Origin: Natronorubrum sediminis
Lineage (GTDB): Archaea > Halobacteriota > Halobacteria > Halobacteriales > Natrialbaceae
DNA: 64,000 nt
Direction of reading: 5' to 3'
Assembly (NCBI RefSeq): GCF_900108095.1
Contig: NZ_FNWL01000004.1
Location: 124,001-188,000 of the forward strand
The position numbers and the translations under genes are program-made. Positions 34,956 to 39,767 of the stretch are shown here, piece by piece (position 1 is the first letter of the stretch; each line of letters begins with the position of its first letter). The notes below the pieces were generated by a model. That model ran no database searches. It was not told the origin of the DNA and saw only the letters and a program-made list of their open reading frames with translations.

Positions 34956-35816
34956 TCAATTGTCAGTGGCGTCCTCGAGGCGATCCGTCCTGGCCTCGCG
35001 AAGCCCATCGCAAATGCCGCCCTGACTCGACATATTGACTTTCGCGAGGCGACAGCGTCGGTGGACGAGCGGGAACGATTCGGAATCGATCGGGTCGCCC
35101 TCGGGGGTCCGAAAGAGACGCGCGTCCGGTTCGGAGAGCAGGCCGGTTTCGCGGGCCTTTTCGACGTAATGGTTGATCGGTGTCCCCGGGAGCGTGACGG
35201 CGAACGAGCGGTCGTGAGCGTAGACGGCGAGTCGTTCGGATGCGTCGCTGGCTCCGGGAGATCTATCGGTGTGTACAGCAGCCGTTTCGGCGTCTTCGAT
35301 CTCGCCGAGACCGTGTTCGGCGGCGGAGTCTCCGGAAACGGTCTCGAAATCAGGCAGTCGGAGACCGACGATCGTCGCCGCGTCGAGGCCGGATTCGAGG
35401 AGCGCCTCGACGGCATCGTACTGACGGGCCACGCGTGCCTTTCTATCGAGCTCCGCACGGACGGCGCTGACGTCACCGTCGGCGTCCGGAAACGCCTCCG
35501 CAAACGAGCGACGATTGTTCACCCCGCGAGTGATCGCGTCCTCGTGGACGTGTTCACGAAGCGTGACGGTTGCCGTTTCGACCGACTGGAGCGTCTCTAC
35601 TTCGTCTCGAGCGTCGCTCGCCATCATCCAGGCGAACGCCGGGGAACACCACGCCGTCGGCAGCGTGAATTCGACGGCGACGTGATTTCCCGCGATCTCG
35701 ATCGCATCGACGTACTCGAGTCTGACTATCGATCGGTCGAGTTCCGGATCGGTGACTCGATCCAACCGTTCGCGGACGACCCGCCGCGTGACCTCATCGG
35801 ATGTCTGTGCAGTCAT
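34956..35816 (-). CDS. DUF59/MIP18-type iron-sulfur assembly protein with long carboxy extension
   Basis: A 286-residue protein. The first 95 residues form a DUF59/PaaD (MIP18) domain: TDPELDRSIVRLEYVDAIEI and the characteristic LPTAWCSPAFAWMMASDARD with the conserved cysteine. The remaining 190 residues are soluble, include a FxxKARxxRQ-like segment (LDRKARVARQYDAVEALLES), then a Cys-containing end (RRCRLAKVNMSSQGGICDGL). In actinobacterial propane monooxygenase clusters a similar long DUF59 protein sits beside an amidohydrolase and an alcohol dehydrogenase, the same neighbours as here. It probably helps assemble a metal or iron-sulfur cofactor. The start overlaps the amidohydrolase stop by one base. 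Confidence 0.75.
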   Translation of the reverse strand: MTAQTSDEVTRRVVRERLDRVTDPELDRSIVRLEYVDAIEIAGNHVAVEFTLPTAWCSPAFAWMMASDARDEVETLQSVETATVTLREHVHEDAITRGVNNRRSFAEAFPDADGDVSAVRAELDRKARVARQYDAVEALLESGLDAATIVGLRLPDFETVSGDSAAEHGLGEIEDAETAAVHTDRSPGASDASERLAVYAHDRSFAVTLPGTPINHYVEKARETGLLSEPDARLFRTPEGDPIDSESFPLVHRRCRLAKVNMSSQGGICDGLREARTDRLEDATDN

Positions 35817-36880
35817 TAGTCGTCCGCCGTTGCTGGTTCTTCGTTTGCATAGTGATCCTCGAGTCCGAACTGCGCGCTTATCTCGTCGTCTTGGAACGTC
35901 CGCCGTCTGTCGTCGATGTCGATATCGTAGAGTTCGGCGGCATTTTCTCCCATCACCTTCTTTTTCGTCTCGAGATCCCATTCGACGCCGTACTCGAGAC
36001 GGTCTTCCTGGGTGAGTTCCGCTTCGATGACTTCCTCAACGAGCCAATCGGGGTTCCAGAGGGCGTAGTCCGAACCGAACAACACTCGATCCTCACCGAG
36101 CCACCAGAGAAGTTCGGACATGATCTCCGAGAACTTCCCGGGGCGATTTTGTGCGAACGGTGCCGCGACCGCGAGGCCACCGTAGACGTTCGGTTCCTGC
36201 CCGGCGATCCAGCAGAAGTCGTCGAGGCGAGGTAATCCGACGTGTTCGACGACGAAGTTGAGGTCGGAGAACGACGAGGCCGCGTCGTCGACGTCTTTCA
36301 CGTCGAATGCGTCGCGATTCAACGGTCTGATCGTCGGCCCCTTGTGGACGTGAATATTGTCGATTCCGAGGTCGCTACACCGCTCGAGGAAGCCGAACGC
36401 GTCCTCGTCATCCAGTCGCCACCCCTTCGAGTCGCCACGCCACTCTGCGGTGTAGAGTTTGACGCCCGGAATATCGTATGTCTCGTGCAATTCCTCGAGG
36501 TACTCGAGGCCCGGATCCGCATCTCGCGGGTCGAACGACCCGTTCAGGACGAATCGCTCTGGATACTCCTCGGCCAGTTCGGCGTTTTGCTCGGTCGTGT
36601 TGAATCCATCTTCGTAAAAGTCGGTGAGGTACGTCGGCTGAAAGATTCCCATATCGACTGCTGCACTCGAGAACAGGTCGTCGAGCATTCGCTCGGCACC
36701 GTACTTTCGGTATTCGTCGATGTCCCACTGACGGTCCTCGGGTGTGAACGTCGTGTGATAATCGTAAAAACACTGGATGAACTCCTCCCCGCCGTCGTGA
36801 ACGATGTTCGACTCGGTCGCATCCCATAGGTGAACGTGACCATCGATGACGAAGATGTCTTCTCCGTTGTGCCGGTACAT
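35816..36880 (-). CDS. Amidohydrolase of the propane-monooxygenase-cluster type
   Basis: A 354-residue member of amidohydrolase family 2 (TIM barrel). It begins MYRHNGEDIFVIDGHVHLWD, the H-x-H metal site of the family, and continues with FQPTYLTDFYEDGFNTTEQN, LYTAEWRGDSKGWRLDDED, IHVHKGPTIRPLNRDAFDV and VEHVGLPRLDDFCWIAGQE, ending VLFGSDYALWNPDW with the catalytic Asp. These segments closely match the amidohydrolases encoded beside actinobacterial propane and acetone monooxygenases, where their role may be in protein maturation rather than amide cleavage. The start at 36880 matches homologues; an ATG at 36910 would add ten residues. It is divergent from the alcohol dehydrogenase. Confidence 0.88.
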   Translation of the reverse strand: MYRHNGEDIFVIDGHVHLWDATESNIVHDGGEEFIQCFYDYHTTFTPEDRQWDIDEYRKYGAERMLDDLFSSAAVDMGIFQPTYLTDFYEDGFNTTEQNAELAEEYPERFVLNGSFDPRDADPGLEYLEELHETYDIPGVKLYTAEWRGDSKGWRLDDEDAFGFLERCSDLGIDNIHVHKGPTIRPLNRDAFDVKDVDDAASSFSDLNFVVEHVGLPRLDDFCWIAGQEPNVYGGLAVAAPFAQNRPGKFSEIMSELLWWLGEDRVLFGSDYALWNPDWLVEEVIEAELTQEDRLEYGVEWDLETKKKVMGENAAELYDIDIDDRRRTFQDDEISAQFGLEDHYANEEPATADD

Positions 36881-37064
36881 GGCATTATGATAATTGTTAC
36901 CAACAACCATTATACTTCTTCAGATATAACAGAATGAGTGTTTCTCACCAGTTATCAGCCCAGTAGCACCCAAACCTCGTTAATATGTCAAACAGTGTAT
37001 TTGATAGTTTGCGACACGAGGGGGGAACATTATCTGCGAGGGTACCGAAGTGGCCCATGTTAAC
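36881..37064. promoter_or_regulatory. Divergent promoter region of amidohydrolase and alcohol dehydrogenase
   Basis: This 184-base gap is A+T rich. A TATA-like ACATTATCTG (about 37027-37036) precedes the alcohol dehydrogenase start by some 30 bases. On the other strand TTATATCTG (about 36922-36930) would serve the amidohydrolase, with a leader of about 40 bases. An ATTATGATAAT palindrome at 36893-36903 lies inside that leader and could be an operator. A shared regulator is plausible but no regulator gene is adjacent. Confidence 0.5.
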
Positions 37065-38108
37065 ATGCAAGCAGCCCGTCTCCACGAGTATACCGACGAC
37101 ATGAGCCAGGGACTCGAGATCGACGACATCGACCGCCCAACGGTCGATCGGTCGGATGAAGTCGTCGTCGACGTCGAAGGCGCGGGATGGTGCCAGACTG
37201 ACAACCACATTATCGAAGGAATGTGGACCGACTACGCCCCGCAGGACCTGCCGATGACGCTCGGTCACGAGAACGCAGGAATCGTCGCCGAAACCGGCGA
37301 CGAAGTGACGCTCGTCGAGGAGGGTGACCCGGTCATCTGTCACCCCGTCCAAACGTGTGGCATCTGTCGCCCCTGTCGACTCGGCGAGGACATGTACTGT
37401 GAGAACAGCGCGTTCAACGGCCTCACAACCGACGGCGGATTCGCTGAGTCCCTGCTGACCAACGAGCGGGCAGTCATCCCACTACCGGAGGGCGTCGATC
37501 CGACCGAAATCGCCCCCCACGCGGACGCAGGGATTACGGCCTACCACGCCGCGAAGAAGGCAGTCCGAGAACTCAACCCCGGCGAGACGGCAGTCGTCAT
37601 CGGCATCGGTGGACTCGGTCACATCGGACTCCAGTGTCTCGACACGATGAGCGCCGCGGATATCGTCGCCGTCGACCGCAAAGACGAGGCGCTCGAATTA
37701 GCCGCCAACCTCGGTGCGCACCACACCGTCAACTCGAGCGAGGAGGAACTCTCGAGCAGAGTGATGGACCTGACCGACGACGAAGGGGCCCAACAAGTGC
37801 TCGATTTCGTCGGCGCGGACGAAACCACTGCAACTGCACCTGAAATGGTCGCCGCGGGCGGCGATCACCACGTCGTCGGCTACGGCGGCAACATCCACGA
37901 ACCGTGTCAGGCCCTCGTCAATGGCGAGTTCTCGTTCAAAGGGACGCTCGTCGGTCGCTACACCGAACTACAGGAACTCGTCTCGCTCGTCGATCGGGGA
38001 GACGTCGAATTGCACACCGAACGCCACGACCTCGAGGAGATCAACACCGTCGCGGAACGACTCGAGCACGGCGAGATCGAAGGTCGTGCGGTCATCCTCC
38101 CACCCTGA
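37065..38108 (+). CDS. Zinc-dependent alcohol dehydrogenase, NAD(P)-type
   Basis: A 347-residue medium-chain dehydrogenase. Catalytic zinc ligands are Cys in AGWCQTDNHIIEG, His-Glu in GHENAGIVAETGDEV and Cys/Asp-position residues later; the structural-zinc cluster is CHPVQTCGICRPCRLGEDMY. The nucleotide fold is VVIGIGGLGHIGLQCLDTMS, with the acidic residue in DRKDEALELA favouring NAD. The product most resembles alcohol dehydrogenases encoded with propane monooxygenase in Gordonia and Rhodococcus, which oxidise the 2-propanol formed. The start at 37065 follows an in-frame earlier GTG that would add five residues. It has its own TATA box and is divergent from the amidohydrolase. Confidence 0.9.
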   Translation: MQAARLHEYTDDMSQGLEIDDIDRPTVDRSDEVVVDVEGAGWCQTDNHIIEGMWTDYAPQDLPMTLGHENAGIVAETGDEVTLVEEGDPVICHPVQTCGICRPCRLGEDMYCENSAFNGLTTDGGFAESLLTNERAVIPLPEGVDPTEIAPHADAGITAYHAAKKAVRELNPGETAVVIGIGGLGHIGLQCLDTMSAADIVAVDRKDEALELAANLGAHHTVNSSEEELSSRVMDLTDDEGAQQVLDFVGADETTATAPEMVAAGGDHHVVGYGGNIHEPCQALVNGEFSFKGTLVGRYTELQELVSLVDRGDVELHTERHDLEEINTVAERLEHGEIEGRAVILPP

Positions 38109-38199
38109 TCCGAGTAGGGCGGAGAGATCGCGTCGTTCGGACCAAATCGTGCTCTCGAAGGGACAGTATTCTCTTGACCGTCCCCGCTGTATACACTGT

Positions 38200-39555
38200 A
38201 TGACCACCCTCGAGGAACCACTCGAGATCGGCGGCGTGACGGTCCCAAACCGGCTCTATCGTGCCCCGTTGCTCGAGTGTGCGGGAAACGGTCCGAACGC
38301 AGTCGATACCCTGATCGACGACCTCGAGCCAGCAGCCGAGTCGGGTGTCGGCCTTATTTGCCAGGGTGCGACAATCGTACGCGGCGACGGTGGCTGTGCT
38401 GCACCCGGAATGACTCGCGTACACGACCCCGACTTCGTCTCGAAACTCACTCGTCTGACCGACCGGATCCACGATCACGGCAGCCGGATCTTCCTGCAAC
38501 TCGAGCACGGCGGCCTGCGAAGTATGGAAACCTGGCACGCTGCGTATCGTCGAGAGAACCCGACTCTCGAGCAACTAGCGGTTTCGAACCCGCCCTGGCA
38601 GTTGCGAGCGCTCGATCGGCTCGGATTTTTGAACTACGACCCGCACGTGCTCTCGACCGACGAGGTGTACGAACTCGCCGCGGATTTTGGTCGCTGCGCA
38701 GCCTCGGCCGTCGACGCCGGCTACGACGGAATCCACCTCGCCGGAGCCAACATGGGGATCGTCCAGCAGTTCCTCTCGCCGTTTTACAACCGACGCGAGG
38801 ACGAGTTCGGCGGTGATCCCGACTCGAGACTCGAGTTTCTCGCCGTCGTCCACGACGAGATTCGCGACCGGGCCGGAGACGTTCCGCTGATCACCAAGGT
38901 GCCGGCCGAAACGGCTACACCGCCGTCACCGATCGTGCGTCGAAAGCTCTCCCTCGGAGATGGGGTCGAAATTGCACGGAGACTCGAGCAAATCGGCTAC
39001 GACGGCATCGTGCCGGTGCAAGCCTCCGTCGTCTGGGATATGAGCATCGTTCGCGGGGAGTATCCCGACCGAGCGTGGGCGAACGAACAGTTACACGAGG
39101 AGTACGACGAAGCCTTCGGCGGCGCACATCGGCGGCGTCTCGTCGCTGGCGCAAACTGGATTCAGTCGCGACAGTACGACTTCGAAGCTGCGTGGAACGA
39201 ACCGTTCTGTCGGCGCGTTCGTGAACAGGTCTCGATTCCAGTACTGACGGAAGGTGGCGTTCGCGAACGTGCGGAAATGGATCGATTACTCGGTAGGACG
39301 GCGGACCCCGAGGTGCCGGCTTGTGACATGGTCGGCATGGCTCGTCCGTTTTACGCCGAGCCAAAACTCGGGGCACGATTGCTCGAGTCCGCGGCCGATG
39401 ATACGGGAAAATTGCCACGAGTGCTCTGTGAAAGCTGTAACAACTGCACCGTTCCACAGGTGACCGGCGCACCGGGAATCTGTCGGACCCCCACTGTTCT
39501 GCGAAAACGCGGCGAACTCGAGCGAGACGGGGCCTACGAACGTGATGACGTGTAA
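38200..39555 (+). CDS. Old Yellow Enzyme-type NADH:flavin oxidoreductase with iron-sulfur motif
   Basis: A 451-residue flavoprotein of the OYE/2,4-dienoyl-CoA reductase family, with an FMN-binding TIM barrel. Visible are IGGVTVPNRLYRAPLLECAG near the start, LQLEHGGLR (His-Gly), the FGRCAASAVDAGYDGIHLAG segment, SPFYNRREDEFGGDPDSRLE, the phosphate loop around VLTEGGV and MVGMARPFYAEPKLGARLL. The end holds CESCNNC, then eleven residues, then Cys (VTGAPGIC), the [4Fe-4S] pattern of the dienoyl-CoA reductase branch, but no FAD domain follows. It lies 91 bases after the alcohol dehydrogenase on the same strand and probably reduces an enone, ketone or nitro compound; the substrate is unknown. Confidence 0.88.
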   Translation: MTTLEEPLEIGGVTVPNRLYRAPLLECAGNGPNAVDTLIDDLEPAAESGVGLICQGATIVRGDGGCAAPGMTRVHDPDFVSKLTRLTDRIHDHGSRIFLQLEHGGLRSMETWHAAYRRENPTLEQLAVSNPPWQLRALDRLGFLNYDPHVLSTDEVYELAADFGRCAASAVDAGYDGIHLAGANMGIVQQFLSPFYNRREDEFGGDPDSRLEFLAVVHDEIRDRAGDVPLITKVPAETATPPSPIVRRKLSLGDGVEIARRLEQIGYDGIVPVQASVVWDMSIVRGEYPDRAWANEQLHEEYDEAFGGAHRRRLVAGANWIQSRQYDFEAAWNEPFCRRVREQVSIPVLTEGGVRERAEMDRLLGRTADPEVPACDMVGMARPFYAEPKLGARLLESAADDTGKLPRVLCESCNNCTVPQVTGAPGICRTPTVLRKRGELERDGAYERDDV

Positions 39556-39643: not shown

Positions 39644-39694
39644 AGACGGACGGACGGCTGGGCGATGAACCTCGAGACGAACGAACGAGAAGAG

Positions 39695-39767
39695 TAGTCC
39701 ATCCTGGATTCGAACCAGGGTCGAAGCCCCCAGAAGGCTTCAGGATTGGCCACTACCCCAATGGACT
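39695..39767 (-). tRNA. tRNA-Gln (CUG anticodon)
   Basis: Read on the minus strand, bases 39767-39696 fold as a cloverleaf: acceptor AGTCCAT pairs with ATGGACT, the anticodon stem AAGCC/GGCTT encloses the loop TTCTGGG with anticodon CTG (glutamine), and the T arm CCTGG-TTCGAAT-CCAGG is standard. The discriminator base is A (39695), and CCA is not encoded. No intron is present in the anticodon loop. Confidence 0.95.

Follow-up and report, generated by a model that had tools for sequence, protein, structure and literature searches.

An oxygenase-free module of alcohol dehydrogenase, amidohydrolase, and DUF59 protein, putatively acting at the alcohol/ketone level, in Natronorubrum sediminis and other haloarchaea

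A 64,000-nucleotide stretch of the genome of the haloarchaeon Natronorubrum sediminis (here called the window) carries four intact genes at positions 34956-39555. Three of them encode a DUF59 protein with a long C-terminal extension (DUF59-ext), an amidohydrolase (AMH), and a zinc-dependent alcohol dehydrogenase (ADH), and they correspond, as the initial annotation had recognized, to helper genes of actinobacterial propane monooxygenase (prm) operons (PMC4428276). Our analysis showed that ADH, AMH, and DUF59-ext form a unit that is independent of the soluble di-iron monooxygenases (SDIMOs) such operons encode, a conclusion we hold with very high confidence. On balance, the evidence as a whole is best explained by an oxygenase-free three-gene module acting on a secondary alcohol/ketone.

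The absence of a di-iron oxygenase, reported initially for the window, holds for the whole genome (3.78 Mb, 99.2% complete), in which PF02332, the profile of the di-iron SDIMO hydroxylase, had zero matches. The same search was validated by matches in 4 haloarchaea and in all four bacterial control genomes. Across 391 haloarchaeal genomes, DUF59-ext is encoded in 123, about a third, and PF02332 in 4, and no genome has both. The suggestion that a prmA-like oxygenase is encoded elsewhere in the genome is thus refuted and, because the organism has no SDIMO of its own and DUF59-ext and SDIMO show zero overlap in haloarchaea, the block is not a prm cluster that is missing its oxygenase. The four haloarchaeal SDIMOs are ~25% identical to PrmA. 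The haloarchaeal SDIMO examined (L060, 5955-11516, genome G064; also L034-L036) is a TmoA-E-like four-component aromatic monooxygenase set, comprising TmoB, a Rieske protein, MmoB, and two PF02332 subunits. A DDE transposase gene separates the genes of the two hydroxylase subunits, and a gene resembling extradiol dioxygenases lies close by.

An ADH orthologue is present in 220 of the 391 haloarchaea, including 122 of the 123 genomes with DUF59-ext, so that the nesting is nearly complete (Fisher 2e-38, a value uncorrected for phylogeny and hence for shared ancestry). The arrangement of AMH-DUF59 with a divergent ADH gene recurs across haloarchaeal families and is therefore not due to chance. 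In 20-kb neighborhoods from many haloarchaeal genera, AMH, DUF59-ext, and ADH are the only genes that recur widely beyond the family of N. sediminis itself; no other gene accompanies the block across haloarchaeal families, and the idea that the trio serves another oxygenase is thus unsupported. The neighboring genes for an Old Yellow Enzyme (OYE)-type reductase, a helicase, CGI-121, and IMP cyclohydrolase are conserved within that family only. Five members of the family that lack AMH-DUF59 retain ADH, OYE, CGI-121, and the helicase in place, and no consistent replacement gene occupies these loci. Because these relatives keep the surrounding ADH and OYE genes, the AMH-DUF59 pair is evidently gained or lost as a unit. 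The haloarchaeal AMHs are intact, with invariant catalytic residues and, from family to family, 66-87% identity to the window copy, and they form one monophyletic clade on the AMH tree (100/100). Since the trio stands alone in SDIMO-free archaea, the two poorly understood helpers, AMH and DUF59-ext, probably act at the level of the alcohol/ketone and not on an oxygenase, and the existence of the SDIMO-free module supports the remaining option of the initial annotation, a different pathway.

The natural system for comparison is the group-5 SDIMO operon (Rhodococcus BCP1 and RHA1, M. smegmatis, and Gordonia, and, in our own data, Caballeronia, Aminobacter, Bradyrhizobium, Mesorhizobium, and Paracoccus). 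Conserved downstream genes of actinobacterial prm regions encode a metal-dependent hydrolase, a metal-sulfur cluster enzyme, an ADH, and GroEL (PMC4428276), and an amidohydrolase and an Fe-S assembly protein are marked in the prm region of a second study (PMC9213486). Besides actinobacteria, many Pseudomonadota carry the ADH-AMH-DUF59 trio downstream of prmABCD. In Caballeronia, Aminobacter, Bradyrhizobium, Paracoccus, Ponticoccus, and Gemmobacter, the genes for AMH, DUF59, and GroEL lie downstream of the SDIMO genes (hydroxylase alpha, reductase, hydroxylase beta, and MmoB, all upstream of AMH), and one or two ADH genes are found close by. The window block has the same AMH, DUF59, and ADH accessory genes, with DUF59-ext directly after AMH; identities are about 50-58% for AMH (tblastn against plasmid records), 26-37% for DUF59-ext, and 45-51% for ADH. 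Unlike the group-5 operons, the haloarchaeal block has no PrmA/B/C/D and no sigma-54 activator, PrmA/PrmC (PF02332) being absent from operon and genome alike; no GroEL-like chaperonin lies beside it, GroEL being clustered with these genes only in bacterial loci; and its ADH gene is divergent and the gene order different. A plasmid of Rhodococcus aetherivorans BW2 was considered as an SDIMO-free case and rejected, an unannotated prmA (64%) lying upstream (L064, 6597-8066). The prm locus of this strain looks incomplete in the PLSDB gene table, where the prmA-like sequence is unlisted.

A scan of named bacterial genomes yielded 80 loci, in 79 of which DUF59-ext adjoins AMH. GroEL was found in 54 of 55 SDIMO loci versus 1 of 25 loci without SDIMO (the exception, L100, is a truncated 3-kb contig). 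GroEL therefore tracks the SDIMO, whereas AMH-DUF59 tracks ADH. This distribution weakens the case for AMH and DUF59 as maturation factors of the oxygenase, as does a described group-6 SDIMO cluster, which is flanked by genes for ADH, aldehyde dehydrogenase, and GroEL and for which AMH and DUF59 are unmentioned (PMC11057499). An SDIMO-free locus was present in 21 bacterial genomes, of which the following 14 lack PF02332 altogether (4/4 controls positive): Thermomicrobium, Thermoflexus, Thermogemmatispora, Chloroflexus, other Chloroflexota, Poribacteria, three Bacillota, and two metagenome-assembled genomes (MAGs), one actinobacterial and one alphaproteobacterial. Twelve of these 14 encode ADH. 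Outside the archaea, oxygenase-free modules are thus known from Chloroflexota, Thermomicrobiota, Poribacteria, and some Bacillota. The modules of Thermomicrobium, Thermoflexus, Thermogemmatispora, Chloroflexus, and Poribacteria consist of the same three genes as the haloarchaeal block, in genomes without SDIMO; unlike that block they are co-directional, DUF59 sometimes precedes AMH, and in Thermomicrobium an IclR regulator lies beside the genes. Their annotation is generic only, and the module was recognized in this analysis. An annotation gap hiding prm genes in Thermomicrobium roseum was rejected, as tblastn gave no match. The trees require a minimum of 4 changes in SDIMO association for AMH and of 5 for ADH. 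In an alphaproteobacterial MAG (L128, 693-4546), an aldehyde:ferredoxin oxidoreductase gene directly follows AMH-DUF59.

The ADH gene (37065..38108, plus strand; alternative GTG start at 37050) encodes a medium-chain enzyme with PF08240 and PF00107, bearing out its initial identification. Its sequence contains the Cys4 structural-zinc motif CGICRPCRLGEDMYC and, at VAVDRKD, an Asp after the second Rossmann strand, as in NAD-type enzymes. Its nearest solved structures are Aeropyrum pernix ADH (1h2b, 47% identity) and Rhodococcus ruber ADH-A (39%), and the next paralogue in its own genome is about 32-34% identical. The catalytic- and structural-zinc motifs, NAD-type Rossmann fold, and orthologous clade place it with secondary ADHs of the medium-chain dehydrogenase/reductase class (ADH-A/A. 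pernix type); R. ruber secondary ADH-A forms a long branch whose placement on the ADH tree is unsure. In the literature library searched, no paper joined haloarchaea with secondary-alcohol dehydrogenase and acetone.

AMH (36910..35816, minus strand; probable start codon at 36880) was likewise correctly identified (PF04909, 5.7e-43). Among 132 homologues, metal-site residues H25, H189, H223, and D281 are identical in all and H27 in 130, giving the ACMSD-like PF04909 pattern of HxH on strand 1, His on strand 5, His on strand 6, and Asp on strand 8. The AMH model (pLDDT 90.9) has the ACMSD/decarboxylase fold, and its structural matches are PF04909 decarboxylases and hydrolases, headed by the uncharacterised BB4693 (3irs; Z 26), which was also the sole match in a profile search against PDB sequences (E 0.0015). 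AMH thus shares with ACMSD, gamma-resorcylate, and 5-carboxyvanillate decarboxylases both the fold (VIA Z about 19-21) and the metal ligands (HxH, H, and D plus the strand-6 His), from which it differs in being only 14-18% identical to these enzymes.

The DUF59-ext gene (35816..34956, minus strand) encodes a MIP18/SufT-like protein in which PF01883 covers residues 13-84 of 286 (E 1e-13), in agreement with the domain call made at the outset, followed by a C-terminal extension of ~190 residues. With PaaD and SufT it shares the DUF59 domain at the N terminus and a single conserved Cys there; the long C-terminal part, which carries another invariant Cys, sets it apart from them. The two residues, C57 of the DUF59 domain and C269 of the last helix, are identical in 138/138 homologues. 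The protein falls below the equivalog cutoffs for PaaD (NF041868; 31.7 bits versus 180) and SufT (TIGR03406; 20.1 bits versus 202.6). An AlphaFold2 model (mean pLDDT 90) matched the PDB over the N-terminal DUF59 part only (about 73 columns), and the extension had no Foldseek match of its own; the search used the whole-protein model, so a new fold is not implied.

From these features we infer the following chemistry. ADH would use NAD to convert a small secondary alcohol to the corresponding ketone and back. The ketone-level product would be the substrate of AMH, a putative mononuclear metalloenzyme of the ACMSD/decarboxylase/hydrolase type, and DUF59-ext would serve AMH as a dedicated metal or Fe-S carrier via Cys57 and Cys269. 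That the module acts at the alcohol/ketone level we regard as probable, and the division of labor between a putative enzyme and a putative carrier is proposed more tentatively. The prm operons would then have recruited the ADH-AMH-DUF59 module, with GroEL as a separate, SDIMO-specific helper, and group-5 Prm operons would carry the module because they generate 2-propanol and acetone. In a few cases the neighboring genes fit ketone/ketoaldehyde chemistry, albeit weakly. In Peribacillus (L067, 8983-11428) and Jeotgalibacillus (L147, 7992-10431), a DJ-1/PfpI gene follows AMH-DUF59, and on a Rhizobium N324 plasmid (L072, 8986-12275), in a stretch without SDIMO, AMH-DUF59 is followed by genes for a VOC/glyoxalase protein and a 2-hydroxyacid dehydrogenase.

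Several observations weigh against a module of this kind. There are 98 haloarchaea that have ADH without AMH-DUF59, and ADH is therefore independent of the pair; moreover, the substrates of ADH could be primary or other alcohols. In the remaining 7 of the 21 bacterial genomes, all Pseudomonadota, the locus is SDIMO-free but an SDIMO lies elsewhere in the genome, which implies a strong link to the oxygenase in that phylum, and the 14 bacterial genomes without SDIMO include many incomplete MAGs. Finally, AMH of the two Bacillota Peribacillus and Jeotgalibacillus has HxA in place of HxH, and the Jeotgalibacillus genome, the one of these two that was searched, lacks ADH. Because a metal ligand has been lost and Jeotgalibacillus has no ADH, a noncatalytic role of AMH is possible in these bacteria.

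Some of these observations favor a different reading, a general form of the metal-enzyme maturation idea in the initial annotation, in which AMH and DUF59-ext would supply metal to a non-SDIMO enzyme encoded at an unlinked site. DUF59 (PF01883) is a family of Fe-S/metal carriers, and DUF59-ext distantly resembles PaaD of phenylacetyl-CoA epoxidase; in Pseudomonadota the pair accompanies the prm oxygenase even from elsewhere in the genome; and the ligand-degenerate AMH of the two Bacillota could be a scaffold. We nevertheless consider this reading rather unlikely: apart from ADH, nothing in haloarchaea recurs as a third partner of the pair, the full catalytic metal site is kept in 130 of 132 AMHs, and the group-6 SDIMO cluster mentioned above is described without the pair.

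It is much less likely that AMH is itself a dinuclear Fe or Mn/Fe oxygenase of the AibH2/SfbO/PtmU3 type, metallated by DUF59-ext and, for example, hydroxylating the ketone made by ADH. Dinuclear monooxygenases do exist within PF04909 (SfbO and AibH2; PMC10811679, PMC10401708), AMH shares both family and fold with SfbO, AibH1H2, and TruffO and co-occurs with an Fe-S/metal carrier and ADH, and AibH2-like proteins have been reported from haloarchaea and Chloroflexota (PMC10401708). The ligands of AibH2, however, are Asp25, His27, His211, Glu265, Asp337, and His340 (PMC7782822), and this D-x-H, H, E, D-x2-H set is not matched in AMH, where, with the register judged from motifs, HxH replaces DxH (130/132), H223 on strand 6 is followed by x-G, and Ile or Leu occupies the position of AibH2 His340, three residues after D281 (132/132). 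Furthermore, 90% of AibH2-like genes have a Rieske ferredoxin (PMC10401708), whereas none was found among the adjacent genes, within three genes of the block. An oxygenase role of this type is thus disfavored because the dinuclear ligand set is missing.

Comparably improbable is a new two-component O2-using metalloenzyme, formed by AMH and DUF59-ext together, that hydroxylates the ketone or alcohol of ADH. AMH would bind the redox metal site, supplied with metal by DUF59-ext, and its ligands would be unlike those of known amidohydrolase-related oxygenases (AROs), possibly involving the invariant K151 and near-invariant E222, and, if it existed, haloarchaea and Prm bacteria would share an unrecognized oxygenase. 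Least likely of all, and largely refuted, is the view that the block is what decay has left of a prm operon acquired horizontally, after the loss of prmABCD and groEL: the gene content does equal the accessory part of prm operons, but the haloarchaeal AMHs are intact members of a single clade, the divergent ADH arrangement is unlike prm, and SDIMO-free modules occur in distant phyla too.

Within the locus, AMH precedes DUF59-ext on the minus strand, and ADH and OYE are divergent on the plus strand. The AMH stop and DUF59 start overlap by one base (TAATG, 35818-35814), suggesting translational coupling. Common control had been proposed from the divergent arrangement, but an alignment of six family members showed only one short conserved block (GG-GAACgTT), upstream of ADH, in the intergenic promoter region (36911..37064, no strand assigned), and no shared operator. 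The OYE-type flavoprotein reductase gene (38200..39555, plus strand; PF00724, 7.9e-38) indeed lies beside ADH, as first noted; it does so in its own family only, even where AMH-DUF59 is absent, and for this reason we place it outside the conserved unit. It encodes a 451-aa barrel with a C-terminal, 4Fe-4S-like CX2CX2CX11C motif as in TMADH and dienoyl-CoA reductase, and is too short for the C-terminal nucleotide-binding domains of those proteins. A tRNA-Gln gene (39694-39767) lies downstream, followed by the IMP cyclohydrolase gene; the other neighbors are CGI-121 and the helicase-like gene, the latter named by reading its sequence.

AMH and DUF59 are encoded in the best-studied propane oxidation operons, and the cited prm papers assign them no role, calling them simply a hydrolase and a metal-sulfur cluster protein. 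Their occurrence without such an oxygenase in a third of haloarchaea and several bacterial phyla, and nearly always with ADH, shifts the question of what they do from oxygenase maturation to alcohol/ketone metabolism. The oxygenase-free hosts described here make the role of these two conserved prm operon genes testable by simple deletions.

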